Part shown: piece after piece, positions 50,660-64,000 of the stretch
Position numbering within the stretch: the stretch's first letter is position 1
Layout of the letters: the number at the start of each line of letters is the position of its first letter
NCBI GenBank assembly: GCA_946499275.1
Contig: CAMMRL010000007.1
Span: forward strand, 1-64,000
Direction: 5' to 3'
Origin: an uncultured Clostridia bacterium
GTDB lineage: Bacteria; Bacillota; Clostridia; Oscillospirales; Acutalibacteraceae
DNA length: 64,000 nucleotides
Position numbers and translations under genes: made by a program
The notes under the pieces: model-generated
What the model saw: only the letters and a program-made list of their open reading frames with translations
What the model was told of the DNA's origin: nothing
The model's database searches: none

Positions 50660-52489
50660 ATGTGTGGAATTGTAGGCTTTATCGGCTGCAAGCCGGCGGC
50701 CCCCCTACTGTTGGAGGGATTGGCCAAACTGGAGTATCGCGGGTACGATTCGGCGGGAATTGCGTTGGTGGAAAACGGGCAGATTACCATCCATAAAGCG
50801 AAAGGCCGGCTGAGCGTACTCAGCGACCGGATCCGGGGCGGGGACGGCATCGAAGCGACGGTAGGTATCGGCCACACCCGCTGGGCCACCCACGGCAAGC
50901 CGAGCGACGAAAATTCGCACCCGCATAAAAGTGCCAGCGGCCGCTTTGCCGTAGTACACAACGGGATCATTGAAAACTACGCCGCCTTAAAAAAAGAATT
51001 GCAGAGCGACGGGGTGGAATTCCTGTCCGAAACCGACACGGAGGTTATCGCCCATTTGATTGAACGGAGCTATACCGGGGATTTTCTCGCCGCGGTGCGC
51101 GCCGCCATCCAGCGCCTGGAAGGTTCATACGCGCTGGGGGTGCTTTGCGCGGAACATCCGGATGAATTCATTGCGGTGCGCAACGCCAGCCCGCTGATTG
51201 TCGGGCTGTCCGAAATCGGGAACTTTATCGCTTCCGACATCCCGGCGGTTTTGGCTCATACCCGCCGGGTAATCCCGCTGGCCGACCATGAGATCGTCCG
51301 GCTGACACGGGACGCGGTCACGGTGTTCGACCAGGCCGGCCATCCGGTCGAAAAGAAGGAAATGACCGTGGACTGGGACGTGACCAGCGCGGAAAAGGGC
51401 GGGTACGACCATTTCATGATCAAAGAGATCATGGAACAGCCCCAGGCGCTTTCAGCCACCATCTCTCCCCGGATCGACGCGGACGGCGGCATCGTGCTGG
51501 ACGGCATCCATCTCACCGCCTCCCAGCTTCGGAAGGTCAACCGCCTGTTTATTGTGGCTTGCGGTTCGGCCTACCATGCGGGCGTGGTGGGGAAATACGT
51601 GATCGAAAAGCTGGCGCGGATCCCGGTCGAAGTGGACCTTGCTTCCGAGTTCCGGTACCGCGACCCGATTGTGGACGAAAAATCGCTGGTGATTATCGTC
51701 AGCCAGTCGGGAGAAACCGCCGACACCCTGGCCGCCCTGCGGGAAGCGAAACGCCGCGGCGCCAGGGTGCTCTCCATCGTCAACGTGGTGGGCAGCACCA
51801 TCGCCAGTGAAAGCGACGACGTGCTGTACACCTGGGCCGGGCCGGAAATCTCCGTCGCCACCACCAAAGCGTATTCCACCCAGCTCACCATGCTGTACCT
51901 GATCGCGTTTTACATCGCCCACAAGCTGGGGCGGATCGACGACCGTGACCAACGGCGGCTGCTCAGCGCCCTGATCCGCCTGCCGGATATGGTGTCCGGC
52001 ATCCTGCGGCAGGCCGGGGAACTCAAACAGCTCGCCCAGCGGTACGCCTATCTGGAACACGCCTATTTCATCGGGCGGAACCTCGACTACGCGGTGGCGC
52101 TGGAAGCCTCCCTCAAGCTGAAGGAGATCAGCTACATCCACTCGGAAGCTTATGCGGCCGGGGAGCTCAAACACGGCACCATCTCGCTGATCGAGGAGGG
52201 CACCTTCGTGGTGGCCCTCGCCTGCTGCGAAAAGCTGATCGAAAAGACCATGTCCAACATCAAAGAGGTCAAGGCCCGCGGGGCGGAGGTGCTGGTGCTC
52301 ACCACCGACGATAACCGCGACGTTCTGCCGGAAGCGGACCATGTGCTGTACATCCCGAAAACCAACGACCTGCTGATGCCCTCGCTCGAAGTCGTCCCCA
52401 TGCAGCTATTGGGATATTATATCGCCCTGGCACGGAAATGCGATATCGACAAGCCGCGCAACCTGGCCAAAAGCGTAACCGTGGAATAA
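50660..52489 (+). CDS. glmS: Glutamine-fructose-6-phosphate aminotransferase
   Basis: Makes glucosamine-6-phosphate from fructose-6-phosphate and glutamine, the first step to UDP-GlcNAc and peptidoglycan. ATG 50660 gives the mature start MCGIVGF with catalytic Cys2; AAAGGAG precedes it. Glutaminase domain: LEYRGYDSAGIAL, HTRWATHGKPSDENSHPH; two SIS domains: CGSAYHAGVVGKYVIE, SQSGETADTLAALREAKRRG, SVATTKAYSTQ, and the C-terminal DKPRNLAKSVTVE. 609 aa, complete. Confidence 0.97.
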   Translation: MCGIVGFIGCKPAAPLLLEGLAKLEYRGYDSAGIALVENGQITIHKAKGRLSVLSDRIRGGDGIEATVGIGHTRWATHGKPSDENSHPHKSASGRFAVVHNGIIENYAALKKELQSDGVEFLSETDTEVIAHLIERSYTGDFLAAVRAAIQRLEGSYALGVLCAEHPDEFIAVRNASPLIVGLSEIGNFIASDIPAVLAHTRRVIPLADHEIVRLTRDAVTVFDQAGHPVEKKEMTVDWDVTSAEKGGYDHFMIKEIMEQPQALSATISPRIDADGGIVLDGIHLTASQLRKVNRLFIVACGSAYHAGVVGKYVIEKLARIPVEVDLASEFRYRDPIVDEKSLVIIVSQSGETADTLAALREAKRRGARVLSIVNVVGSTIASESDDVLYTWAGPEISVATTKAYSTQLTMLYLIAFYIAHKLGRIDDRDQRRLLSALIRLPDMVSGILRQAGELKQLAQRYAYLEHAYFIGRNLDYAVALEASLKLKEISYIHSEAYAAGELKHGTISLIEEGTFVVALACCEKLIEKTMSNIKEVKARGAEVLVLTTDDNRDVLPEADHVLYIPKTNDLLMPSLEVVPMQLLGYYIALARKCDIDKPRNLAKSVTVE

Positions 52490-52514
52490 AACCGGAAGCC
52501 CCTCCAAAAAAACG

Positions 52515-52560
52515 AATCCCCCGGCCGGAAGTGAACGTTTCCGACCGGGGGATTTTCTTT
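52515..52560 (+). terminator. Terminator after glmS
   Basis: CCCCCGGCCGGAA / TTTCCGACCGGGGG type hairpin followed by TTTTC. Confidence 0.8.
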
Positions 52561-52563
52561 CCC

Positions 52564-52824
52564 CTATGCCATCAGCCCCCGCACGTATTTCCAGGCAAGG
52601 ACCCGGAACACGGCGTGATCCAGCGCTTCTTCCGGGATCACGCCCGCGCGCAAGGCAGACAGAATTTCCGCATACCCGGCGGCGCAATTGCCCAAAAGCA
52701 GCAGGTCGTTCCCCGCCAGGAGCGCCTGCACGGCATGGCCAGCAATACCGGAACTACGGCAGCCGCCGCAACAGACCGTCGCCTTCTCTTTCGCATAATC
52801 CCCATTCGCATAACAGTCTCTTTT
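52564..52824 (-). pseudogene. Remnant of a GH3 beta-N-acetylhexosaminidase
   Basis: The minus frame ending in the TAG at 52564-52566 reads AVQALLAGNDLLLLGNCAAG, YAEILSALRAGVIPEEALDH, AVFRVLAWKYVRGLMA. This is the characteristic end of the GH3/NagZ catalytic domain (AGNDLLL, then SALRAGxIPEE, then RxLAWK). Upstream the frame contains GDYAKEKATV and then a stop at 52825-52827, about 85 codons in, with no start codon; the N-terminal 300 or so residues are missing. So it is a decayed gene, not a shadow frame. Confidence 0.7.
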
Positions 52825-52901
52825 TCATAATGGTTGGCAGATGGCGTCTCAACGTCGGATATAAAAACACATCCCCCGGGGGCACTATATTCCCATTCCA
52901 T

Positions 52902-52932
52902 AAAAAAACGGGCGGAAACCCGCCCGCTTTTG
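52902..52932 (-). terminator. Terminator after pyrE
   Basis: CGGGCGG / CCGCCCG stem with T7 on the minus strand (A7 at 52902-52908). Confidence 0.85.
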
Positions 52933-52946
52933 TCCGCGATAAAGTA

Positions 52947-53621
52947 TTACCCACGGATACCGTATTCTTTCAAATACGCTTCCATCTTTTCCCGCATTTC
53001 GTCGTTCAGGATTACCTCGCCGTCTATCGGCACGTTATGCAGGGTTTCAATAATCTCCCGCACTGTGACGATGGGATAGGTGTCAATCCCGTACTCCTGT
53101 TTGATCTCCTGGATGGCGGAAAGCTCGCCCTTCCCCCGCTCCATCCGGTCGGCGGAAACCACCAGCCCGGCGATCTCGACATCCGCGATCCCTTTCAGGA
53201 TGGGCAGGCATTCCCGCATGGCGGTCCCGGCGGTGATCACGTCTTCAATAATAATCACCCGGTCGCCGTCCTTGAGCGGATAGCCGACCAGCACGCCGCC
53301 CTCGCCGTGATCTTTGGCCTCCTTGCGGTTGAAACAGTAGCTCACATCCCGGCCGTACCGGTTGTACAGCGCGATGGAACAGGCTACGGAAAGGGGGATG
53401 CCCTTATACGCCGGACCGAACAACGCGTCCACCGGCTGCGGAAAATGCTCCTGCACGCAGGCGGCGTAATATTCGCCCAGCTTGGCGGCCTGCGCCCCGG
53501 TGCGATAATTCCCCGTGTTGATAAAATAGGGGGTTTTCCGCCCGCTCTTGGTGGTGAAGTCTCCGAAAGTCAGTACCTTGGAGCGGACCATGAACTCGAT
53601 AAATTCCTTTTTATACGACAT
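52947..53621 (-). CDS. pyrE: Orotate phosphoribosyltransferase
   Basis: Makes OMP from orotate and PRPP in pyrimidine synthesis. 224 aa. Blocks: GDFTTKSGRKTPYFINTGNY, LFGPAYKGIPLSVACSIAL, FNRKEAKDHGEGG and the PRPP loop VIIIEDVITAGTAMRE. RBS AAAGGA. No other pyr gene adjoins. Confidence 0.96.
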   Translation of the reverse strand: MSYKKEFIEFMVRSKVLTFGDFTTKSGRKTPYFINTGNYRTGAQAAKLGEYYAACVQEHFPQPVDALFGPAYKGIPLSVACSIALYNRYGRDVSYCFNRKEAKDHGEGGVLVGYPLKDGDRVIIIEDVITAGTAMRECLPILKGIADVEIAGLVVSADRMERGKGELSAIQEIKQEYGIDTYPIVTVREIIETLHNVPIDGEVILNDEMREKMEAYLKEYGIRG

Positions 53622-53662
53622 GGGTTTTCATCCTTTCCTATATCCGTTGATCCGTTAATGAT

Positions 53663-54094
53663 TTACGGGTTGCTGATTATCCCCAGCGCCAGGCGGCCTT
53701 TGGCGGTCAATACGGCCCGGCCCCGGCGGATATGCGGGGTATCAAACAGAAAACCTGGCCGGTTTTTCCCTTCCTCCACCAGTTCGCAGAGCTGGCGGTA
53801 AACGGCGGATTCCTTATACACGGCGTAATCCGCCGCCACCGTGACCGCCGGCCGGTAATCAATGAGTATCAGCCCCTCCTGTTCCAGGTGGGCAAGGGTT
53901 TCCCCCCGCCGCTTGACGATAGCCATTAGCTCCTCCGCATGCTCCAGCCGCACATGGTTGAGCGCGGTAGAGCGCAGTTCCCGTTCCCGGCTGCTCCACA
54001 ATTCCAGCCGCACCAGCGGATACCGCTTCACCCCGGCGATCGTTGTCAGAAGCTCCCGCTCCTCGGGCCGAAGCCCGCTTTCCTTTTGTGTCAT
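53663..54094 (-). CDS. Hypothetical protein
   Basis: Cytoplasmic protein of 143 aa without a family I recognise. Charged and helical in the first two thirds (RPEERELLTTIAGVKRYPL, HAEELMAIVKRRGETLAHLE), ending with HIRRGRAVLTAKGRLALGII. The end resembles a winged-helix tail and the layout could fit a small transcription factor, but this is a guess. 41 bases upstream of pyrE on the same strand. Confidence 0.6.
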   Translation of the reverse strand: MTQKESGLRPEERELLTTIAGVKRYPLVRLELWSSRERELRSTALNHVRLEHAEELMAIVKRRGETLAHLEQEGLILIDYRPAVTVAADYAVYKESAVYRQLCELVEEGKNRPGFLFDTPHIRRGRAVLTAKGRLALGIISNP

Positions 54095-54147
54095 TCGTTC
54101 ACCCTTCTTTCCGGATGGGCTTTTCCCGTCCTGCCGTCCTTTACCGG

Positions 54148-54444
54148 TTACTGCAAAATCAGCAGGGTCACGCCCGGGTTCAGCCCCACCACTTTGGAGC
54201 GGATGCGGGGATGCTTCAAGCTTCCCCGCACCATATCCCGCAGCGTCGTGCCGCCGGTGTATCCGTGGATCACGGTTACTTCACGGACACTGCCGTCCAG
54301 GCGGCTGAGCAGCCGCTCCAGATGCCGTTTCGCTTGATCCCGAGTCATGTGATGGATATCCACCTCCACCTTCTGCCCGGTGGAAAAACGGGGTTCCCAA
54401 CCCGGCGTCATCCGTCGGGGAGAAGAGGAACGCGAGTGCGCCAT
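54148..54444 (-). CDS. Smr-domain protein
   Basis: Small MutS-related (Smr) domain protein of 98 aa. ATG 54444 follows GGAAGGGGG. The core is visible: VEVDIHHMTRDQAKRHLERL (the usual LDLHG is here VDIHHM), VREVTVIHGYTGGTTLRDMV (HGxGxG type) and PGVTLLIL. Stand-alone Smr proteins are nucleases or RNA-binding factors. The altered LDLHG motif leaves activity open. 53 bases ahead of the hypothetical gene that precedes pyrE. Confidence 0.85.
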   Translation of the reverse strand: MAHSRSSSPRRMTPGWEPRFSTGQKVEVDIHHMTRDQAKRHLERLLSRLDGSVREVTVIHGYTGGTTLRDMVRGSLKHPRIRSKVVGLNPGVTLLILQ

Positions 54445-54650
54445 AGCCGTTTTCCCCCTTCCGATCCATTCGCCTGCATCCACTTTTGTCCATTATACGG
54501 CATACGGCGGACAAGTGCAAGGCGCGGTGTTGACTTTTCGCGCGGTCGGGCTATACTTAAAAGCGGACGTTGCGGGAAACCGCCCCTTATTCGGTACGGC
54601 TTTCCGCGCTCCATCCCTATCCTGAATCACAACCGGAAAGGATGATCCAT

Positions 54651-55202
54651 ATGTACGAAACCATTACCCAACAGGCCCGCCAGGCGGTCGACGAGCTGAT
54701 GGAAGCCGCCGGGCTGCGGACCGGGCAGGTCCTCGTGGCGGGCTGCTCCTCGAGCGAGATGGTTGGGGAAAGAATCGGTACCTGCTCCAGCGAGGACGCG
54801 GCGAACGCCCTGCTGAACGGGCTGTATCCGTCTCTCCAGGAACGTGGGATTTTTCTCGCCGCCCAGTGCTGCGAGCACTTGAACCGCGCCCTGATTGTGG
54901 AACGGGAAGCGGCGGAACGGTACGGCTGGGAGATCGTAAATGTAGTCCCCCAGCCCAAAGCGGGAGGTTCCTTTGCCACCGCCGCCTATGCAGCGTTCCG
55001 GGACCCTGTCGCGGTGGAAAAAATCCAGGCAGACGCGGGGATGGATATCGGCAATACCCTCATCGGCATGCATCTGCGGCGGGTCGCCGTCCCCCTGCGG
55101 CTTTCCATAAAGCGGATCGGGGAAGCTCCGCTGGTGTGCGCCCGCACCCGTCCCAAGTTCATTGGCGGCGAACGCGCCCATTACCGGAAGGATCTGCTGT
55201 AG
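54651..55202 (+). CDS. UPF0340/TIGR01440 family protein (YwlG-like)
   Basis: Cytoplasmic protein of 183 aa of unknown function. ATG 54651 lies eight bases after AAAGGA. Family blocks: VLVAGCSSSEMVGERIGTCS, GIFLAAQCCEHLNRALIVER, VVPQPKAGGSFATAAY, GMDIGNTLIGMHLRRVAVPL. In many Firmicutes it lies by glyA or upp; here it stands alone. Confidence 0.9.
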   Translation: MYETITQQARQAVDELMEAAGLRTGQVLVAGCSSSEMVGERIGTCSSEDAANALLNGLYPSLQERGIFLAAQCCEHLNRALIVEREAAERYGWEIVNVVPQPKAGGSFATAAYAAFRDPVAVEKIQADAGMDIGNTLIGMHLRRVAVPLRLSIKRIGEAPLVCARTRPKFIGGERAHYRKDLL

Positions 55203-55262
55203 CCGACGGCTCGCCGCCCGTTATGCGGGAAAAGCGGGATAAATGATACCGAAAACACGAAA

Positions 55263-55295
55263 GAGGAGACGTTTCCTAAACGGAAACGTCTCCTC
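55263..55295. terminator. Bidirectional terminator
   Basis: AGAGGAGACGTTTCC / GGAAACGTCTCCTCT stem, 5-base loop, between convergent genes. Confidence 0.85.
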
Positions 55296-55359
55296 TGCAT
55301 TTTCATGGAAAACCCGCGTGCATTACGGACGGGCGCCCTTCTTCGCGGCTTGCCGCCGT

Positions 55360-56817
55360 TTATGCGTGCCGGTGAACATTCGCCTTGTCCAGCCCCTTGC
55401 TCTCCACGTTTTCTACCACGCTTTCCGCGCCGCCGAGCCGGGTATCGAACACCTTTTTCGATTTCTGGATTTCCATCAGGGTCGCCGGGCCGCCCATACA
55501 ACCGCCGACGCAGAACATTCCCTCGACGAAGTCCACCGGCAGCTTGCCGGCCTTCAGAAGCATCAGCGCCTTGCGGCATTCGTCCGCGCCGTTGCATTTC
55601 TGCGCTTTGACGTTGGCATCCTCGCCCCGTTCGCTGAGCACCTGGGCCACCGCGCCGGTCACGCCGCCGGACACCGCAAACCCTTTGCCGTACCGGGTCG
55701 CGTCTTCAGGCGCTTCCTCCGTCTCTTCCACCTCGATGCCCTGGGCGCAGAGCATAGCGTACAGCTCCTCAAACGTAATGGCGTAGTCGATTTCGTCCAC
55801 ATAATTGCCCATCACCTCGTTTTTCTTGGCGATGCAGGGGCCGATGAACACCGTCACCACCCCGGGACGGATACTGCGGATATACCGTTCGACGGCAACC
55901 ATCGGGGACACGGTAGTGGACACGTATTTTTCCAGCGCCGGGAAATGCTTATGCACCAGGTTCACAAACGCCGGGCAGCAGGAGGAGGTCATCGGTTCGC
56001 CCGCCGCACGCCGCTCGGACAGCTCGGCCGCCTCGTTATACGCGACCATATCCGCGCCGAGCGCGACCTCGTACACGTCGTCGAACCCCAATTTCCGGAT
56101 CGCCTGCTTGATCTGCGGTAAGGTAGCCGCACCAAACTGCCCTTCGATCGCCGGGGCGACCATGGCGACCACTTCCTTGTCCTGCTTTTTCAGCGCATCG
56201 ATCACACTGACCATCATAGACACGTCGGAAATCGCGCCGAACGGGCAGCCTACCACGCAAGCGCCGCAGTTCACGCATTTTTGCGGGTCAATGGTAGCGA
56301 TGTCGTTTTCGTCCATGTTGATCGCTTTTACCGGGCAACTTTTGATGCAGGGCCGCTCGATTTCCACAATGGCGTTGTACGGGCAGGCAGCGACGCATTT
56401 GCCGCACTTCTTGCATTTCGATTGGTCAATCACCGCGCCATGCGGCGTGCTGGTAATCGCGCCGAACGGGCAGGCCTTCACGCACTTTTTCGCCAGGCAG
56501 CTCTGGCAGTTCTGGGTGACAGTGATCTTGGTGATCGGGCAGCCCTCGCAGGCGCAGGGAATAACGTGGACGACCTGCGCGCTGTCCGCGTCGGTATACA
56601 GCACGTCCATGGGCAGCTTGCCCATCGCCATGCGCACCCGCTGGCGGACAATTTCCCTCTCCCGGTATACGCAGCAACGGAACTGCGGCTTGATCCCTTC
56701 GATCATCTCATAAGGGATTTTGTCGTATTCCTCATACAGGTTGCCGTCAAAAGCATGCTTTGCGGTACGCCGCAGAACCTCGTGCTTGATTTGAACGATA
56801 TCGGTGATGTTTTCCAT
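55360..56817 (-). CDS. [FeFe] hydrogenase, group-B type
   Basis: Iron-only hydrogenase-like enzyme (485 aa). I use ATG 56817; the ATG three codons earlier abuts the AAAGG site. N-terminal part carries multiple clusters: CACEGCP, CQSCLAKKCVKACP, CKKCGKCVAACP, CIKSCP and CVNCGACVVGCP. The H-cluster motifs are TSSCCPAF (about 280), IGPCIAKKNE (about 326) and EGMFCVGGCMGGP (about 434): all four cysteines are present, while side residues differ from the classical MPCxxKxxE. It likely exchanges electrons with ferredoxin. Separated by 115 bases from the phosphatase gene upstream; probably same transcript. Confidence 0.85.
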   Translation of the reverse strand: MENITDIVQIKHEVLRRTAKHAFDGNLYEEYDKIPYEMIEGIKPQFRCCVYREREIVRQRVRMAMGKLPMDVLYTDADSAQVVHVIPCACEGCPITKITVTQNCQSCLAKKCVKACPFGAITSTPHGAVIDQSKCKKCGKCVAACPYNAIVEIERPCIKSCPVKAINMDENDIATIDPQKCVNCGACVVGCPFGAISDVSMMVSVIDALKKQDKEVVAMVAPAIEGQFGAATLPQIKQAIRKLGFDDVYEVALGADMVAYNEAAELSERRAAGEPMTSSCCPAFVNLVHKHFPALEKYVSTTVSPMVAVERYIRSIRPGVVTVFIGPCIAKKNEVMGNYVDEIDYAITFEELYAMLCAQGIEVEETEEAPEDATRYGKGFAVSGGVTGAVAQVLSERGEDANVKAQKCNGADECRKALMLLKAGKLPVDFVEGMFCVGGCMGGPATLMEIQKSKKVFDTRLGGAESVVENVESKGLDKANVHRHA

Positions 56818-56932
56818 AATGTCCATGCCTTTCCGACCGCCCGGCCGGCCAGCGGCGAACGGTCTGTCTTAGTGCGATGCCGCGTCCGCGGCGAATTACG
56901 TCTCCGCCCTTCCGGGACGAAAGCGGGTTTCG

Positions 56933-58102
56933 TTAATAATACCGGATGCGGACGATTTTTCCCGCCGCCCGCAGCGTATCGGCCAGCTCTTCGAGCAGCC
57001 GGATTTTGATGCTCAGATCCACCGGCAGGTTGGGATTTTGATGGGCGGGGTTGATCGCCTTGCCGATGAACATATTCAGATGGGTGCAGTGCTCCAGCAG
57101 TATCCGGGCGATCATCGCCGCCCCGTTCCCCGCGTCCAACGCCTTGATGTTTTCGGGGTCGGCGGGGTTTTCCAGCGAATTTTTCACCAGCACGTTCACC
57201 TGCCGGATGGTCAGCACCCCTTCGGTTACCAGGTCAATGCCCTTGATGTGGGCGATCGGGGGCAGGTCGTCGTCGAAATTGAGGTCGGTAGTCACTTCCC
57301 GCCCGAGCACCCGGGCCACGAGGTTGGCGCTGCTGCCGCCGCAGACGATCTTCAGCCCCTCCGGCGACATGAAGTCCACCACCGCCCGCTCGTCGTCCTG
57401 CTTGAAGCGGGGCGGGCCGGAGAAAAGGCTGACCACCTGCTGCGGGATCACCCGCACCGTCGCCACCGTGGTGTCGTCCCCCGGCTGGCGCATATACAGG
57501 TCCTCGCACGCGCCGAGCAGGGCGGAGGTCATCCGGGCGCTGGTGGTTTCCTCCTGCCAGTTGTCCTCCAGGAAGTCCCGCACGCTCTCCCAGTTCCATC
57601 CCAGGTTGAGCACCGCGCCGATACCGGCGTACATCACGCCGTCGCTGATGAGGGTGAGGACGTCCCCCACCTCCACGTCGAACACAGCTTCCTTGATGGT
57701 TTTCCCACCGACCTCCCGCTCGGTATACTCGATAGGATAGGCCACCCCGTCGTGTACATGGATACAGCCGGGGCAGTCGAATTCGGTCAGGTACGCTTTG
57801 CCGTCGGTGGTCAGCTTGAGGATGGAAAAGGTGGAATACGCGACATGCCGCACCTTACACACCGGCAGGGTATGGATGATGGTGTCCACCGTGTCCTCCA
57901 GCGTCGCACCGGATTTTACCATGGTGGCAATGATTTTGGAGGTGAGGGTGGCGAGGATGTTGGCCTTGACGCCGCTCCCCAGCCCGTCGGACAGGACGAC
58001 GATCACCCCGTCCTCGACGTTGACCACCTCCACCTTATCGCCGCAAAGCTCCTCGTTCTTCTTGTTTAAGCTTTTGGAGGTGACGTCATAATACACGCTC
58101 AT
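56933..58102 (-). CDS. SpoIIE-type PP2C serine phosphatase
   Basis: Cytoplasmic PP2C phosphatase (389 aa). Metal-binding motifs: VIVVLSDGLGSGVKAN (about 33-48) and VLTLISDGVMYAG (about 148-160), and GDDTTVATVRV. A C-terminal region of about 170 residues (from FSGPPRFKQDDERAVVDF) has CGGSSANLVAR and is not part of PP2C. The ATG overlaps the stop of the sensory hydrogenase gene (ATGA), so the two are coupled; in related anaerobes this pair signals redox or H2 state. The phosphoprotein target is unknown. Confidence 0.88.
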   Translation of the reverse strand: MSVYYDVTSKSLNKKNEELCGDKVEVVNVEDGVIVVLSDGLGSGVKANILATLTSKIIATMVKSGATLEDTVDTIIHTLPVCKVRHVAYSTFSILKLTTDGKAYLTEFDCPGCIHVHDGVAYPIEYTEREVGGKTIKEAVFDVEVGDVLTLISDGVMYAGIGAVLNLGWNWESVRDFLEDNWQEETTSARMTSALLGACEDLYMRQPGDDTTVATVRVIPQQVVSLFSGPPRFKQDDERAVVDFMSPEGLKIVCGGSSANLVARVLGREVTTDLNFDDDLPPIAHIKGIDLVTEGVLTIRQVNVLVKNSLENPADPENIKALDAGNGAAMIARILLEHCTHLNMFIGKAINPAHQNPNLPVDLSIKIRLLEELADTLRAAGKIVRIRYY

Positions 58103-59844
58103 GACGGATCACCTTCGTTTAGCATCTGCTTTTTCAGGTTCACCAGCGTCACCTTGGTTTCCGCCGTGGTTTCGCCGAGCAGGCTCGCGATTTCCTGCGC
58201 CACGGTCATCTGCTTATCGATAACCTTCTGCGCCATTTCCGCGGCTTCCAGACGGGCGCGGCGCGCCGCCGTCTCTTGCTGTTCCTCTTCGGTAACGTCC
58301 TTGAAAAAGCCGATGACAATATCCTGTTCCGGGACGTAAACCAGCGTCTCCTCCACAATCGTCTCCTTGGAGATGAGATGCGTTTTCTTGTTCACGATAT
58401 TGCGGTGAGTGTCCAGGACCTCCTGGAAGTCCTCCGGGTCCATGAGTTCAAACAAATCGGATTTCAGCGCCTCCTTGCGGGACACGCCGAATTTCGCCTG
58501 GGCCGCCTGGTTGAACTCCACAATCCGCAGGTCGCGGTCCACCGCGACGATATAGTTGGGCGTCACGCTCAGGGTCACATTGCTCAGTGACTGGGACAGG
58601 TCGATCATATACGGCAGGCACATATACAGCTCCGCCTTGCCGCGGTAAACCGCAATCGCCTTGTCCCGGCAGGTGTTGTACCCGCAGGAGCCGCAGTTGA
58701 GTTCCTTGTCCGGCGTCGGCTTGCCGATTTCGGTCAGGATTTTCCGGATGGTCTTTTCATCCGGTTCCTCCTCTTTCTTCTGCTCCGTCTCAAACCGGAG
58801 GGAAAGGTCGGGCGCAGCCGGTTTCACTTCCTCAAACCCGTCGGCGGCGTACTTTTCCACCGAAAGCCGGGCACGGAACGCCGCCCGCCGTTCCTCCGGG
58901 ATCAGCGGGCCGTTCACGCAGCCGCCGTCGCAGGAGTTCAGCTCCACAAACAGCCGGCCACAGGAACCCGCCTGCAGCTCCTCCAAAAACGCCATCACGT
59001 TTTCCAACCCGCAGACGCTGATGAAACTGTAGCCGTTGTAGGACCCACTGGCAAAGCCTTTGTGGGAGTTCAGTTTCACATCCCGCACAATCCCTTCCGG
59101 CACCGGATAAATGCGGGAGAAGGGGGCGGGCAGCGAAGCAGGGCATTCCTCTTCGGGCGCATCCATTTCCGCCAGGCGGATCCCCCGCTCCGTGAACAGG
59201 GCGTCCAGCTGCCGGAAGGTGATGACACCGTCCGCCGACTCGGGATGGTCGTCGATCTCCTTGATTTTCGACAGGCAGGGGCCGACAAACACCACCTTGG
59301 TATCCGCGCCGTCCCGCTCCTTAATCGTCCGCCCGTGGGCAAGCGCCGGGGAAACCACCGGCGCCATATAGGGGACAAGGGAGGGATAATACTTGGTAAT
59401 CAGGCTGTTGACCGTCGGACAGCAGGTGGTCAAGATACATTCCATTTCCCCCTCGTCCAGGAGCCGCTTGTACTCCGCCGTCACCTCGTTGGCGCCCACG
59501 GCGGTTTCCTCCACCGCGTCGAAGCCGAGACGGTACAGCGCCGCGCGCAGCCGTGCCGCGCTTTCGCCCTTGCCCGCATCGGCATACAGCCCGGCGTACG
59601 ACGGCGCCAGGCTCGCCACCACCCGCACGGACGGGTCCGCCAGCCAGCCCAGTATGCCGGCAATATCGTTCACCACCGTTTTGGCCTTCTGCGGACATAC
59701 GTTGACGCAGTGCCCGCAGAGAATACATTGCTCGGCGATGACCTCCACCCGGTCGTTGATATAGCTGATCGATTTCACATCGCAGTGCTTTAGACATTTA
59801 TAGCAGTTTTTGCAGTTGGCTTCTTTTACCCGTATGTAACCCAA
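58099..59844 (-). CDS. PAS-domain sensory [FeFe] hydrogenase (HydS type)
   Basis: Group-C-like hydrogenase (581 aa) probably sensing H2 or redox state. TTG 59844 is chosen, giving MGYIRVKEANCKNCYKC; longer readings run into the ferredoxin gene. Domains: two 4Fe-4S (CKNCYKCLKHC, CILCGHCVNVCP), H-cluster region with LTTCCPTVNSL (about 143), VGPCLSKIKE (about 190) and LNSCDGGCVNGP (about 300), a four-Cys 4Fe-4S (LNCGSCGYNTC...YMCLP, about 395-425), a PAS domain (VTPNYIVAVDRDLRIVEFNQ, about 440-540) and a helical end. No kinase domain is attached, so output may go to the coupled phosphatase. Confidence 0.87.
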   Translation of the reverse strand: MGYIRVKEANCKNCYKCLKHCDVKSISYINDRVEVIAEQCILCGHCVNVCPQKAKTVVNDIAGILGWLADPSVRVVASLAPSYAGLYADAGKGESAARLRAALYRLGFDAVEETAVGANEVTAEYKRLLDEGEMECILTTCCPTVNSLITKYYPSLVPYMAPVVSPALAHGRTIKERDGADTKVVFVGPCLSKIKEIDDHPESADGVITFRQLDALFTERGIRLAEMDAPEEECPASLPAPFSRIYPVPEGIVRDVKLNSHKGFASGSYNGYSFISVCGLENVMAFLEELQAGSCGRLFVELNSCDGGCVNGPLIPEERRAAFRARLSVEKYAADGFEEVKPAAPDLSLRFETEQKKEEEPDEKTIRKILTEIGKPTPDKELNCGSCGYNTCRDKAIAVYRGKAELYMCLPYMIDLSQSLSNVTLSVTPNYIVAVDRDLRIVEFNQAAQAKFGVSRKEALKSDLFELMDPEDFQEVLDTHRNIVNKKTHLISKETIVEETLVYVPEQDIVIGFFKDVTEEEQQETAARRARLEAAEMAQKVIDKQMTVAQEIASLLGETTAETKVTLVNLKKQMLNEGDPS

Positions 59845-59879
59845 AGCCCGTCCCCGCCTTTCCTTACCGAATCGCGGTC

Positions 59880-60122
59880 TCAGTCCGCCTTCGCCACGGT
59901 GGTTTTGAAAAACTCGTCCGCCGTTTCCGGCCGCACGCTGTAAATCTCGTCCGCGTATTTGACGCATACGCCCGCGTCCGCACAGTGTCCCATGCAGAAC
60001 GATCCCTTGAGCTCCACACTGCCCTCCAGATGGTACTCCTCAATCAATTCTTTGAACCGCTTAATAACATCCCGGGAATTCTGCAGATGGCAGGAGCTTC
60101 CTACGCACACCATCAAATCCAT
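59880..60122 (-). CDS. Thioredoxin-like [2Fe-2S] ferredoxin
   Basis: Small protein (80 aa) of the NuoE/HydA-C-terminal type that binds a 2Fe-2S cluster. ATG 60122 follows GGAAGG at 9 bases and gives MDLMVCVGSSCHLQNSRDVI. Cluster cysteines are in CVGSSCH and GSFCMGHCADAGVCV. First gene of the hydrogenase operon; likely an electron partner of the sensory hydrogenase, which starts 36 bases further on. Confidence 0.9.
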   Translation of the reverse strand: MDLMVCVGSSCHLQNSRDVIKRFKELIEEYHLEGSVELKGSFCMGHCADAGVCVKYADEIYSVRPETADEFFKTTVAKAD

Positions 60123-60225
60123 TGTCCGACACCTTCCAATCCTGTAATCCGAAATGATTTTGTAATGATTTCCTCCCACCGCCGCATATCGCGCGCCGGT
60201 GGACGGCACACTTGTATTCATTGTC

Positions 60226-60254
60226 AGTATACTGCTTCGTTATTTTTGTGTCAA
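60226..60254 (-). promoter_or_regulatory. Promoter of the hydrogenase operon
   Basis: On the minus strand TTGACA (60249-60254), 17 bases, TATACT (60226-60231); leader of about 95 bases. Confidence 0.75.
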
Positions 60255-60576
60255 TGTATAATTCCTCCTGAATTTCCAATACACCATTTGCTAAATTCTC
60301 TTTTTTCCGCATTTGTTCGTTGCTTTTCTCTACCGGCTACCTGCTGGCCAAAGCCATGAGCGAACGTCTCGTATCCCACTACAATCAGGTGCGGATTAAG
60401 CGATCCTTAAGGTTTCGTTTCCCTGGTTTTCAACATCCCGTGATACGATAGACGCAGAACTCCGCAAGGAAAACGTCTCCGAAGAAATCCCGGATGCAAT
60501 TACGCCGAAAATATGCTATGCTGTAATTATCGCCCGCGCAGCGGGCAACACGAAAAAGCAGGAAAGGGAGAAAACG
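60255..60576. other. Gap between divergent operons
   Basis: A plus-strand frame (about 60302-60448) reads STGYLLAKAMSERLVSHYNQ and then a basic stretch; it has no start or ribosome site and may be a gene fragment. A possible -10 (TATGCT, 60517-60522) faces the response-regulator gene. Confidence 0.35.
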
Positions 60577-61290
60577 ATGGCACAGACAATCTTGGTTTGC
60601 GACGACGACAAGGAAATCGCCGCCGCCGTGGATATCTATCTAACCGCGGAAGGGTACCATGTCATCCAGGCGTACGACGGCTTTCAAGCGCTGGACGCTA
60701 TTCAGAAAAACGACGATATCCAGCTGATTCTGATGGACATTATGATGCCGCGTCTCGACGGGGTGCGCACCACCATGAAAATCCGGGAAACCCGCAATAT
60801 CCCGATCATCATGCTCTCGGCCAAAAGTGAGGACAACGACAAGATCCTCGGTCTGAACATCGGGGCGGACGATTATATCACCAAGCCCTTCAACCCCATG
60901 GAATTAATCGCCCGGGTTCGTTCCCAGCTCCGGCGGTACACCAATTTCGGCGGCACGCCGGAAGCAGAAGCGTCTCACAATCCTGCGGTCATGGTCAATG
61001 GAGGGCTGGAGCTGGACGACGGCGCCAAGCGGGTGAGCGTGGACGGGCAGGAAGTGTCCCTGACCCCGGTGGAATATAAAATCGTGAAGTTTTTTATGGA
61101 AAATAAAGGCTTGGTATTTTCCAGCGCCCAGATTTACGAAAACGTATGGAACGAGCCGTCTTACGGCGCGGATAATATTGTCGCCGTCCATATCCGCCAT
61201 ATTCGGGAAAAGATCGAAATCAACCCCAAGGATCCCCGTTACATCAAGGTAATTTGGGGCCATGGGTATAAAATGGAAAAACTCGACTAA
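60577..61290 (+). CDS. OmpR/PhoB-type response regulator
   Basis: DNA-binding response regulator (237 aa). Receiver: ILVCDDDKEIAAAV, phospho-acceptor Asp in LILMDIMMPRLDG (about 53), IIMLSAKSEDNDKI and DDYITKPFNP (Lys). Winged-helix output: VSLTPVEYKIVKFFMENKGL, YGADNIVAVHIRHIREKIE and YIKVIWGHGYKME. RBS GGAAAGGGAG. Followed by its sensor kinase after 50 bases. Resembles VanR/WalR-like regulators; the signal is unknown. Confidence 0.94.
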   Translation: MAQTILVCDDDKEIAAAVDIYLTAEGYHVIQAYDGFQALDAIQKNDDIQLILMDIMMPRLDGVRTTMKIRETRNIPIIMLSAKSEDNDKILGLNIGADDYITKPFNPMELIARVRSQLRRYTNFGGTPEAEASHNPAVMVNGGLELDDGAKRVSVDGQEVSLTPVEYKIVKFFMENKGLVFSSAQIYENVWNEPSYGADNIVAVHIRHIREKIEINPKDPRYIKVIWGHGYKMEKLD

Positions 61291-61340
61291 AGGGGGCCGC
61301 CGGTTCCACCGTCGGCTGTTTTTGAAAGGTAGGGATCCGC

Positions 61341-63335
61341 TTGGGCCTGAAAAGTAACCTATTTGCCAAGGTATTCGCCTTCGGCCTTTGCCTGATCTTC
61401 GCCGTTGCCGGCGCACTGACCTCCGTACTCTCTTACTATTTGTATATTGTCATCGGGGCATACGAGGAGCAGTATACCGACACGTCCCGTTATCAGCAGG
61501 CCGTTTCCGTCAGCGCCGACTACATCTATCAATACGCGCAGCTTGAAGCGCTGTCGCAACAGGAAGCGCCGGAATACGGCGACCAGGTGTACATGGAATA
61601 CCTGCAGGGGCGGCTGTTCCCGCCGGCCGGCTCCAATATCGCCTGGGCGCTGGTCGATGCCGACGGGAACTGCTTGTTAACCAATATGGAGGAGACGGTC
61701 TCCCCCGTCGCCAGCATCAAGGCGTTGACCGGCAACCGGTTTGAACAACACCAAATGGACAGCGACTACGTTTTGATCGGCCTGAAAAAGGACATCACTG
61801 TAAGCGACGAGTATAGCCAAGATCTTAAAGAATATGAACAGGCCCGTAAATGGGGCCGGCTCGTCCTGTTCGGCGCCGGGTCCTGCATCCTACTGACTCT
61901 GGCCCTTTTCGCCTTTTTGGTGGCTGCAGCCGGGCATAAGCGGGGGGTGGAGGGAATCGCACTCAACCCCTTTGATCGGATCTGGACGGAAGTGATCCTG
62001 ACCGGCGTTGTTCTGCTGGCCATCGCTGGGATCAGCGTATTCGGCGGCAATATGTATACTTACGAAATCATTGTCATCGCCCTGCTCTGCGTTGTGGGCG
62101 CCCTCATCCTTTTTTTCTCCCTGGTGCGCCGGGCCAAGGCCAAGATGCTGCTGAAAACCTCGTTTGTCTATCTGTTGGCGCGATTATTCCGCATCATTTT
62201 CCGTCATCTGAAAATCACCGCCCGGATTCTCGGCTTCCTGATCGCTTATGCGCTGCTTCAGCTCCTGCTCGTCATCGGGATGACGGGCGGGAACCCCATC
62301 GCCGCTTTCTTCTTTGTGACGACCAACGTGGCGCTGTTCATCATCGTCTGTCTTGGTTTTATCCAGTATCACCAGATCTGCAAGGCCACCGAACGAATGG
62401 CGGCGGGCGAACTGGAAAATCTGGTGGATGAAAACACCGTACCCTTTTTCCATCACATCGCCCATAATCTGAACAGCACCGGCAAGGCGATGACCCTAGC
62501 GGTGGAAAAAGCAACCCAAAGCGAACGGATGAAAACCGAACTGATTACCAACGTCTCCCATGATATCAAAACGCCGCTGACCTCGATTATCAGCTATGTA
62601 GGGCTGCTGCACACCACCAATATTCAGGATCCGAAGGCGTTGGAATACATCGACATCCTGGACCGAAAGTCCCGGCGGCTCGGCCAGCTGATGGCGGACC
62701 TGGTGGACGCTTCCAAAGTGACCAGCGGCAACATCGCGGTGAACATGGAAGTTATCAACCTGGGCGAATTGGTCAAACAGGCCGGCGGGGAATTCGAATC
62801 CCGCCTGGAGGAACGCGGCATCCAGATGATCAGCTCCTTGCCGGAAACGCCGGTTTTCGTCTACGCCGACGGACGGCACATGTGGCGGGTGCTGGATAAT
62901 CTGTTCGGCAACGCGGCCAAATACGCGCTAGACGGCACCCGTGTCTATGTGGACCTGACGGTCATCGGCCGGGAAGTGCTCCTTTCGGTGAAAAACATCT
63001 CCCGCGACGCGCTGAACATCCGCCCGGAAGAGCTGATGGAGCGTTTTGTGCGGGGGGACCAATCCCGTAATACCGAAGGCAGCGGCCTGGGGCTTTCCAT
63101 CGCCCGCAGCCTAATGGAACTGCAGCACGGGACGATGAACATCCAAATCGACGGCGACCTTTTCAAAGTGGTGCTCGGGTTACACCTGGTCGAGCCGCCT
63201 ACGCCGCCCGCACCCTCCGCGCCCGAGGAAGCGGCGCCGGCAGAGGACCCCGCCCCCGAGGAAGCGGCGCCGGAAACACCCCCTCCGCCCAGAGGCCGCC
63301 TTAAGAAAAAAACGCCGAATCCGCCGTCTCCCTAA
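61341..63335 (+). CDS. Sensor histidine kinase
   Basis: Membrane kinase (664 aa), TTG start after GGTAGGG. Helix at about 10-35, external sensor region (about 36-165), then four to five more membrane segments (about 170-350), so the sensor part is partly a multi-pass membrane domain, unlike VanS/WalK. HAMP-like linker, HisKA with NVSHDIKTPLTSIISYVG (His at about 403), N box DNLFGNAAKYA, and GSGLGLSIARSLMELQHGTM. The C-terminal tail is a repeat of Pro/Ala/Glu (APSAPEEAAPAEDPAPEEAA) ending in basic residues. Partner of the regulator just upstream. Confidence 0.93.
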   Translation: MGLKSNLFAKVFAFGLCLIFAVAGALTSVLSYYLYIVIGAYEEQYTDTSRYQQAVSVSADYIYQYAQLEALSQQEAPEYGDQVYMEYLQGRLFPPAGSNIAWALVDADGNCLLTNMEETVSPVASIKALTGNRFEQHQMDSDYVLIGLKKDITVSDEYSQDLKEYEQARKWGRLVLFGAGSCILLTLALFAFLVAAAGHKRGVEGIALNPFDRIWTEVILTGVVLLAIAGISVFGGNMYTYEIIVIALLCVVGALILFFSLVRRAKAKMLLKTSFVYLLARLFRIIFRHLKITARILGFLIAYALLQLLLVIGMTGGNPIAAFFFVTTNVALFIIVCLGFIQYHQICKATERMAAGELENLVDENTVPFFHHIAHNLNSTGKAMTLAVEKATQSERMKTELITNVSHDIKTPLTSIISYVGLLHTTNIQDPKALEYIDILDRKSRRLGQLMADLVDASKVTSGNIAVNMEVINLGELVKQAGGEFESRLEERGIQMISSLPETPVFVYADGRHMWRVLDNLFGNAAKYALDGTRVYVDLTVIGREVLLSVKNISRDALNIRPEELMERFVRGDQSRNTEGSGLGLSIARSLMELQHGTMNIQIDGDLFKVVLGLHLVEPPTPPAPSAPEEAAPAEDPAPEEAAPETPPPPRGRLKKKTPNPPSP

Positions 63336-63407
63336 ACAGCCGGACAAAGGCGGAAGCTATTTGCCGCCGGGTGAATCATCCGCCACACGGCTTATCCAAA
63401 ATGAAAA

Positions 63408-63431
63408 AACCTCCGCCATATGGCGGAGGTT
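63408..63431. terminator. Hairpin after the sensor kinase gene
   Basis: AACCTCCGCCAT / ATGGCGGAGGTT, T6 only on the minus strand. Serves the kinase gene poorly and the minus-strand gene well. Confidence 0.6.
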
Positions 63432-63448
63432 GCGTAACGAAGGTTTTA

Positions 63449-63484
63449 AAACCGGGTGCAGCTTTTGGTAGCTGCACCCGGTTT
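63449..63484 (-). terminator. Terminator of the right-edge gene
   Basis: 14-bp stem AAACCGGGTGCAGC / GCTGCACCCGGTTT, T4 on the minus strand, 53 bases after the stop at 63537. Confidence 0.65.
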
Positions 63485-63536
63485 CCGCTATGACACTTTC
63501 GGACTGTGCCCGCAAAGATGTCATGAGAGAATATGC

Positions 63537-64000
63537 TCACGATTTACAACTGTTTAAAAGTTGTTCTACAATCTTATCAATTCCTTGTTGGATGTGTTCG
63601 GGAACTTTGAAGATATTCAAAAATAAATCTTCATCAACATACGTTTCATCACCTTTTGGGGCAAGCCATAATACATAAGGAGTCACATCAGTCCTGCATA
63701 TATTTTTTATTAGATAATAGTCGGTCAAAATCACAATATTTTCAGAAAGAGCATGTGAACCATCGTCCATATTAATATCTGCATTTATAATGGTATCGGT
63801 AAATTGATGTGTGTATTCATGCAGCAACATAAAGAAAGTATTGTCCAATTTGTCCATATGCAAAGGGTATGGTACTGCGGCGGAAAAGCAGTCGGATATT
63901 CCTCCAATGTCTCTGCCGTTTTTTGTTATACTGAAAGAAAGCCACGCTTTTACGGACTTTTTGTAATAATCAAATATAAAGCTATATTGGTTTATTTTGT
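63537..64000 (-). CDS. Putative HExxH metallopeptidase-like protein, N-terminus outside window
   Basis: The minus frame stays open from the stop at 63537 to the right edge, so the start lies beyond 64000; a TTG at 63863 is only an internal codon. 154 codons are visible. Reading begins KINQYSFIFDYYKKSVKAWL, later YPLHMDKLDNTFFMLLHEYT and HQFTDTIINADINMDDG. HEYTH (HExxH) is the zinc-protease motif, and a SENIVILTDYYLIKN segment lies further on. The ending (VPEHIQQGIDKIVEQLL) is helical. The coding sequence is AT-rich with A/T-ending codons, unlike every other gene here, which points to recent transfer. Family not recognised. Confidence 0.6.
   Translation of the reverse strand, partial: KINQYSFIFDYYKKSVKAWLSFSITKNGRDIGGISDCFSAAVPYPLHMDKLDNTFFMLLHEYTHQFTDTIINADINMDDGSHALSENIVILTDYYLIKNICRTDVTPYVLWLAPKGDETYVDEDLFLNIFKVPEHIQQGIDKIVEQLLNSCKS

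Follow-up and report, generated by a model that had tools for sequence, protein, structure and literature searches.

The stretch of DNA analysed here (the window) comprises 64,000 nucleotides, positions 1 to 64,000 of contig CAMMRL010000007.1 (assembly GCA_946499275.1), from an uncultured Clostridia bacterium of the family Acutalibacteraceae. Its minus strand carries at 55262–60254 a set of four genes encoding, in order, a [2Fe-2S] protein, the PAS-containing [FeFe] hydrogenase HydS, the SpoIIE-type phosphatase HfsC and the group-B [FeFe] hydrogenase HfsD. The open reading frames, the family profiles and the DNA are concordant, which bears out the proposal of the initial annotation, made from the sequence letters, that a sensory hydrogenase, a phosphatase and a group-B hydrogenase share one operon; the [2Fe-2S] gene upstream of HydS was absent from its naming. 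The following features were assigned:

60226–60254, minus strand: promoter-like site TTGACA-17-TATACT ahead of the operon, near-consensus (11 of 12 matches); a lead only, because five such sites were found in the region versus 2.0 in shuffled sequence
59880–60122, minus strand: HfsA-like [2Fe-2S] thioredoxin-like protein (PF01257), 80 residues if begun at the ATG at 60122, with a longer open frame starting at 60221
58099–59844, minus strand: HydS (HfsB), with two N-terminal [4Fe-4S] motifs, H-cluster domain, C-terminal FeS domain, PAS domain and conserved tail; the TTG start was picked by eye
58132–58245, minus strand: conserved tail of HydS (residues 534–571), marked by conservation and by covariation with HfsC; proposed output element
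56933–58102, minus strand: HfsC, SpoIIE/PPM-type phosphatase with a C-terminal domain, 389 residues (PF07228 at residues 31–218)
56936–57448, minus strand: C-terminal domain of HfsC (residues 219–389), Rossmann-like in the model, no Pfam family
55360–56826, minus strand: HfsD, monomeric group-B (B1) [FeFe] hydrogenase, 488 residues (TIGR04105, 597 bits, cut-off 450)
55262–55296, minus strand: intrinsic terminator with a 15-pair stem (folding z = −7.0)

The stop codon of HydS (TGA, 58101–58099) and the start codon of HfsC (ATG, 58102–58100) share the four bases ATGA, as the initial annotation had noticed. The Pfam domains of HydS are PF02906 (Fe_hyd_lg_C), PF04060 (FeS) and PF00989 (PAS).

Pairing of HydS and HfsC in the phylum

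The co-occurrence survey that had been suggested along with the first description of the locus was conducted genome by genome on a sample of 299 genomes of the phylum, with kinship ignored. The C-terminal domain of HfsC was found in 93 of them and HydS in 91, every one of which is among the 93; the domain was thus not found mostly without hydrogenases in this phylum. The HydS set was delimited at an E-value below about 5e-27, a cut chosen after the gap to the fused sensors had been seen (next match at 7.6e-23). Of the two genomes without HydS, one (G028) holds a broken fragment of the C-terminal domain, and the other (G005) is considered below.

At the level of loci, the domain was recovered 190 times, with a full HfsC in 184 cases, and in 181 of these HydS or its tail lies directly upstream on the same strand (178 intact HydS genes and three HydS tails). 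The loci lacking a simple upstream HydS are one at a contig end (L083), one with HydS in pieces (L102) and one with no HydS (L053); in a further three (L050, L081, L141) HfsC is divided into two frames downstream of HydS. Among the 178 intact pairs the median spacing is −4 bases, with 127 overlaps, 36 distances of 0–20 bases and 15 above 20, the overlaps being inflated because each frame was begun at its most upstream start. An HfsA relative shorter than 240 residues is located close upstream of HydS in 132 of 179 cases. The 190 loci are made up of 113, less three from the window's own genome and less the G028 fragment (L146, which gave no match at the level of open reading frames), plus 81; the window's own locus is excluded, and the 80 named loci are the best 80 of at least 576 relatives and lean to near relatives. 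The total of full HfsC loci is 184 for spacing and 185 for the neighbour counts given below, which L141 enters by its longer piece. According to these data, the linkage of HydS and HfsC is near-absolute in the phylum sample.

Two observations concern the spread of the system. Three genomes of a single genus (L140, L142, L143) carry a divergent stand-alone form of the C-terminal domain immediately behind a HydA-type gene; used as a query, this form retrieved 91 of the 299 genomes, by eye the 93 minus G028 and G265. A HydS–HfsC pair is also carried by an IMG/VR contig filed as viral, which is possibly host DNA.

The window's own genome (2.5 Mb in 90 contigs) has four [FeFe] hydrogenase domains and two SpoIIE-type phosphatase domains, the second of which belongs to an open frame of 838 residues on contig C60. 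A second copy of the HfsC C-terminal domain was ruled out, as the genome search gave a single match. An Rfam scan of positions 52000–64000 of the window produced zero matches.

The tail of HydS and the two halves of HfsC

The initial annotation regarded HydS as a PAS hydrogenase with no output domain. This is correct by Pfam, but the protein ends with a conserved tail. Conservation of 80% or more is reached by 23 of the 56 columns between residues 526 and 581; the corresponding figures are 8 of 110 for the PAS domain, 48 of 255 for the H-domain, 20 of 60 for the N-terminal ferredoxin part and 19 of 40 for the FeS domain. The tail pattern gave no match among 25 sensors that share the FeS domain with HydS and differ in their C-terminal part; these were hand-picked among the weaker HydS matches listed and sorted by short patterns (18 with a sigma-54 activator, six with histidine-kinase motifs and one unassigned). 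In a FastTree analysis of 100 sequences, 46 HydS proteins (that of the window and 45 chosen at random) formed one clade apart from these 25 sensors; supports were 0.977 for the 25 and 0.881 for all 71, the HydS node carried no printed value, and the tree was midpoint-rooted, with group A not monophyletic under that root. By its phosphatase partner, its domains and its own clade, HydS fits group C3 of HydDB, an assignment made outside HydDB's own classifier.

Cysteines at the positions of C300, C355 and C499 (CpI numbering) occur in 179 of 179 HydS relatives and at that of C503 in 178, and the four cysteines of the C-terminal FeS domain are kept in all 179. Of the 179 relatives, 170 have Gly at the M353 position; the Met497 position is Asn in the window and varies among the relatives (N 60, L 44, S 40, M 27). 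In the sensory enzyme TmHydS, as given in the accessible part of its description, these positions are Gly and Ser and the proton-transfer Cys is replaced by Ala (PMC10055695). The window and 101 of the 179 relatives keep the proton-transfer Cys (Ala in 35, Ser in 28), so this residue is not decisive, and the idea that HydS is poorly active through its loss was dropped.

The fused sensors deserve mention in their own right. Among loci L231, L232 and L237–L256 of phylum genomes, an [FeFe] hydrogenase, a C-terminal FeS domain and a sigma-54 activator are combined in single proteins; the activator was recognised by motif in 18 of the 25 picked proteins, and two fusions were confirmed with Pfam. 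Such a fusion would be a one-protein hydrogen (H2)-responsive transcription activator, and no paper evidently devoted to it was present among the matches listed by our literature search.

The AlphaFold2 model of HfsC has a mean predicted local distance difference test score (pLDDT) of 90.0 and a predicted template-modelling score (pTM) of 0.87. Its PPM half superimposes on SpoIIE (5ucg_A; Z 24.7, root-mean-square deviation (rmsd) 2.6, 214 aligned residues) and on a Sphaerobacter phosphatase (3pu9_A; Z 25.6), and all 183 relatives have Asp at positions 39, 154, 209 and 210. By fold and by these residues HfsC is a SpoIIE-type PPM phosphatase, with predicted activity.

The presence of an extra C-terminal domain, pointed out initially together with a “conserved-looking” CGGSSANLVAR motif, was confirmed: residues 219–389 match no Pfam family over cut-off. 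The motif is conserved as well. Its two glycines, G255 and G256, are kept in 183 and 181 of the 183 relatives, the Cys is C in 150, S in 18 and A in 15, and the first Ser is Thr in 164. Modelled alone (pLDDT 90.1, pTM 0.86), the domain adopts a Rossmann-like alpha/beta arrangement in which these glycines lie in a Gly-rich loop behind a strand; E294, G295 and N351 are invariant (n = 183). A PDB sequence search with the domain gave a single match (E 1.1), Pfam searches with 16 members gave four families, each for one member and at E 0.018 or worse, and Foldseek found no PDB match at E ≤ 0.001. The best VIA-align hit was chain B of the FhcABCD complex (Z 9.2, rmsd 3.2, 115 aligned), with formylmethanofuran dehydrogenase chains at Z 8.0–8.4. 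As models without a clear match typically reach a best Z of 7 to 8, only the Rossmann-like arrangement is claimed and no relationship.

Covariation of HydS with HfsC was assessed by mutual information in 176 pairs (about 125 effective sequences). In the 40 highest-ranking pairs with the phosphatase half, variable tail columns were enriched 5.1-fold; for the C-terminal half, the enrichment in the 32 highest-ranking pairs was 3.8-fold. In the control, HydS with HfsA (132 pairs and the window), tail enrichment was 1.0-fold (top 15) and 1.4-fold (top 30), whereas with HfsC at nearly the same loci (129 pairs) it stood at 5.2-fold in the phosphatase half and at 2.8-fold in the C-terminal half. This supports, short of proof, a contact between the tail and the phosphatase half; the signal for the C-terminal half is close to the control.

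Proposed signal path, partner hydrogenases and alternatives

Taken together, the best explanation of the pairing is, in our view, that the H2-sensing HydS controls the phosphatase HfsC in trans through its tail and thereby adjusts electron sinks, to which we assign a probability of roughly 0.6. In this scheme the H-cluster of HydS would read H2 or the redox poise, and the change would reach the conserved, probably helical tail by way of the C-terminal [4Fe-4S] cluster and the PAS domain. The tail would then act, presumably by direct contact, on HfsC, a putative Ser/Thr phosphatase without a regulatory domain before its catalytic core. The C-terminal domain of HfsC may be a system-specific accessory, most likely serving hydrogenase docking or substrate choice, and the dephosphorylated target would tune electron sinks such as the neighbouring H2-evolving hydrogenase and AdhE. 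The conversion of H2 sensing into protein dephosphorylation, as suggested in the initial annotation, agrees with a published hypothesis and with the genome linkage, but the phosphatase activity, its target protein and the direction of its response are putative.

The same annotation named the group-B enzyme as a possible target or effector. Of 185 loci, 58 have a group-B HfsD within 6 kb of HfsC (defined by matches to HfsD over its first 100 residues and to its H-domain), 65 have another [FeFe] hydrogenase there and 65 have neither; three loci fall into both classes, and some loci end at contig ends. A group-B enzyme over cut-off is present in 38 of the 93 genomes with the HfsC domain, and the domain in 38 of 55 group-B genomes versus 55 of 244 others (odds ratio 7.7, kinship ignored). 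Group B as a constant partner is ruled out by these counts, and the enzyme is an optional partner of HydS–HfsC. Since the hydrogenase partner varies while HydS–HfsC is constant, a target common to all settings is favoured over HfsD. Among same-strand neighbours of HfsC, a Rex-type repressor occurs in 38 of 185 loci and AdhE in 18 (19 on either strand), an APH-fold kinase is nearby in 12, and the kinase and AdhE together lie beside HydS–HfsC in nine loci of relatives (the names Rex, AdhE, NfnAB and HydA were given from domains or by eye).

Genetic studies, cited here and below from the accessible parts of the papers, are available for hfsABCD of Thermoanaerobacterium, in which HfsB is regarded as a putative sensor, HfsC as a homologue of serine phosphatases and HfsD as a ferredoxin-linked hydrogenase (PMC5707799; PMC11837493). 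Deletion of hfsA or hfsB raises the ethanol yield, strains without hfsC and/or hfsD remain at the wild-type yield, and deletion of hfsA and/or hfsB cuts H2 more than deletion of all four genes, from which the authors infer regulation (Eminoglu 2017; PMC5707799). Overexpression of hfsD in an hfsABCD deletion of T. thermosaccharolyticum led to a high ethanol yield (2025; PMC11837493), which places HfsD downstream. The overexpression result gives genetic support to the effector role of the group-B enzyme, whereas its role as target is weakened by its presence near HfsC in only 58 of 185 loci and by the 55 of 93 domain-bearing genomes without a group-B enzyme over cut-off.

Several points weigh against control of HfsC by HydS. 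G005 keeps HfsC without HydS, although by eye this orphan is missing some ten residues close to where the first long helix begins. At the widest cut the covariation gap narrows (phosphatase half 3.3-fold, C-terminal half 2.2-fold, HfsA 1.9-fold), and with about 125 effective sequences shared ancestry cannot be fully removed. HfsC is dispensable once HfsD is abundant, because the high yield is reached without hfsA, hfsB and hfsC. Finally, a 2026 paper reports high-yield strains arising by disruption of “hfsB/C” or by hfsD point mutations, the mechanism behind them being described there as not known; this fits poorly with a need for hfsC and slightly lowers our confidence.

The single operon and its tight spacing would also suit HydS and HfsC as subunits or accessories of an HfsABCD enzyme complex, with a structural or cofactor role for the phosphatase-like protein, and the accessible text of the 2026 paper considers HfsABC as possibly a functional hydrogenase without HfsD. 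The invariant Asp residues of HfsC, the 127 of 185 loci where no group-B HfsD is seen within 6 kb and the stronger loss of H2 after hfsA and/or hfsB deletion (PMC5707799) make such a complex improbable. That HfsC dephosphorylates HfsD itself is distinctly improbable: HfsD is next in the operon, acts downstream in Thermoanaerobacterium (PMC11837493) and co-occurs with the HfsC domain, but the genomes lacking a group-B enzyme and the 65 loci with another hydrogenase nearby argue otherwise.

It is unlikely that HfsC answers a redox or metabolite cue on its own C-terminal domain, HydS being a separate input or merely an electron source. A Gly-rich loop after a strand in a Rossmann-like fold is a usual nucleotide site, and the conserved loop, the invariant E294, G295 and N351 and the stand-alone domain behind HydA-type genes speak for this reading. 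Ligand binding is nevertheless a guess, because no significant PDB match was found, and a cue acting on HfsC only leaves the strict pairing with HydS unexplained.

A last, rather unlikely, extension concerns the opposing reaction. GHKL kinases like RsbW and SpoIIAB classically counteract SpoIIE-type phosphatases. Contig C41 of the own genome (5543–9248) holds a second sensory-type hydrogenase locus, with DRTGG, GHKL ATPase (HATPase_c_2), hydrogenase, DRTGG and PHP genes; the hydrogenase, which has a C-terminal FeS domain but no PAS, lies directly after the GHKL ATPase and between the two DRTGG genes, and resembles the group-D TamHydS by architecture, as far as the accessible account of the latter goes. 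Relatives of this GHKL protein occur in 70 of 93 HfsC genomes versus 59 of 206 others (odds ratio 7.6, at genome level only and with kinship ignored). Two H2 sensors, HydS–HfsC and the C41 hydrogenase with its GHKL protein, could drive opposite arms of one phosphorylation cycle and act on a common substrate, possibly a DRTGG protein or the AdhE-linked APH-fold kinase.

Two other loci of the own genome are relevant to electron flow. On contig C1 (6336–12842), an APH-fold kinase and AdhE are encoded on one strand, divergent from NfnAB-like genes (by eye). On contig C10 (6348–11386), NuoE-type, HATPase_c, 2Fe-2S and NuoF-type genes and a 580-residue [FeFe] hydrogenase follow one another, by eye an operon for a multimeric hydrogenase of the NAD type.

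Comparison with known systems

A 2022 review treats the role of sensory [FeFe] hydrogenases as putative and, in its accessible part, without direct physiological evidence (PMC8924675). With regard to their signal output, the linkage described here gives the tailed HydS one fixed partner in the phylum sample, and the conserved tail and the unnamed C-terminal domain of HfsC are two precise sites for mutation. The feedback of hydrogen on fermentation matters for the ethanol yield of thermophiles (PMC5707799) and for the H2 supply to rumen methanogens (PMC6776011), so a defined sensor–phosphatase pair would render this regulation testable.

The operon belongs to an already recognised kind, and the HydS–HfsC system is common in the phylum sample. 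HydDB lists group C3 as “Phosphatase-linked (putative)”, with the same proposed role and a sensor encoded with a Ser/Thr phosphatase, as here; the accessible part of its account mentions neither a C-terminal domain of the phosphatase nor a tail of HydS (PMC5037454). Histidine-kinase-fused sensors (HydDB C1 by description; one recognised here by Pfam, L233, and two by eye, L234 and L235) share the H-domain, the C-terminal FeS domain and the PAS domain with HydS, but have their output in cis, do not match the tail pattern and fall outside the HydS clade. The SpoIIE/RsbU phosphatases of partner-switching systems have the catalytic fold and the conserved Asp residues of HfsC; unlike them, HfsC has no N-terminal regulatory domain and possesses a C-terminal Rossmann-like domain, and no STAS gene is located in this operon (one STAS match genome-wide, on contig C33).

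The order PAS hydrogenase, phosphatase and ferredoxin-type hydrogenase on a single strand is that of hfsABCD in Thermoanaerobacterium, a different organism, and the last three proteins are of the same kinds; a [2Fe-2S] protein is encoded upstream of them here and is called HfsA-like by protein kind. In Ruminococcus albus, HydS with a phosphatase was proposed as an H2 sensor, and its cluster was 111-fold down in co-culture (Greening 2019; PMC6776011). That cluster combines an H-cluster protein with PAS, a phosphatase and a ferredoxin-only hydrogenase, as here, but its partner hydrogenase is filed as group A1 instead of group B, and it includes an alcohol/aldehyde dehydrogenase, whereas AdhE is on another contig in the genome studied here (PMC6776011). 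No paper evidently on PP2C or SpoIIE phosphatases with [FeFe] hydrogenases was present among the matches listed by our literature search, PMC6288185 contained none of the terms sought, and the accessible parts of the published accounts of the system were not found to mention the C-terminal domain, the HydS tail or the strictness of the pairing. Beyond the known kind, our analysis adds two testable elements, the tail of HydS and the Rossmann-like C-terminal domain of HfsC, and it documents the strictness of the HydS–HfsC pairing and the optional nature of the group-B partner.

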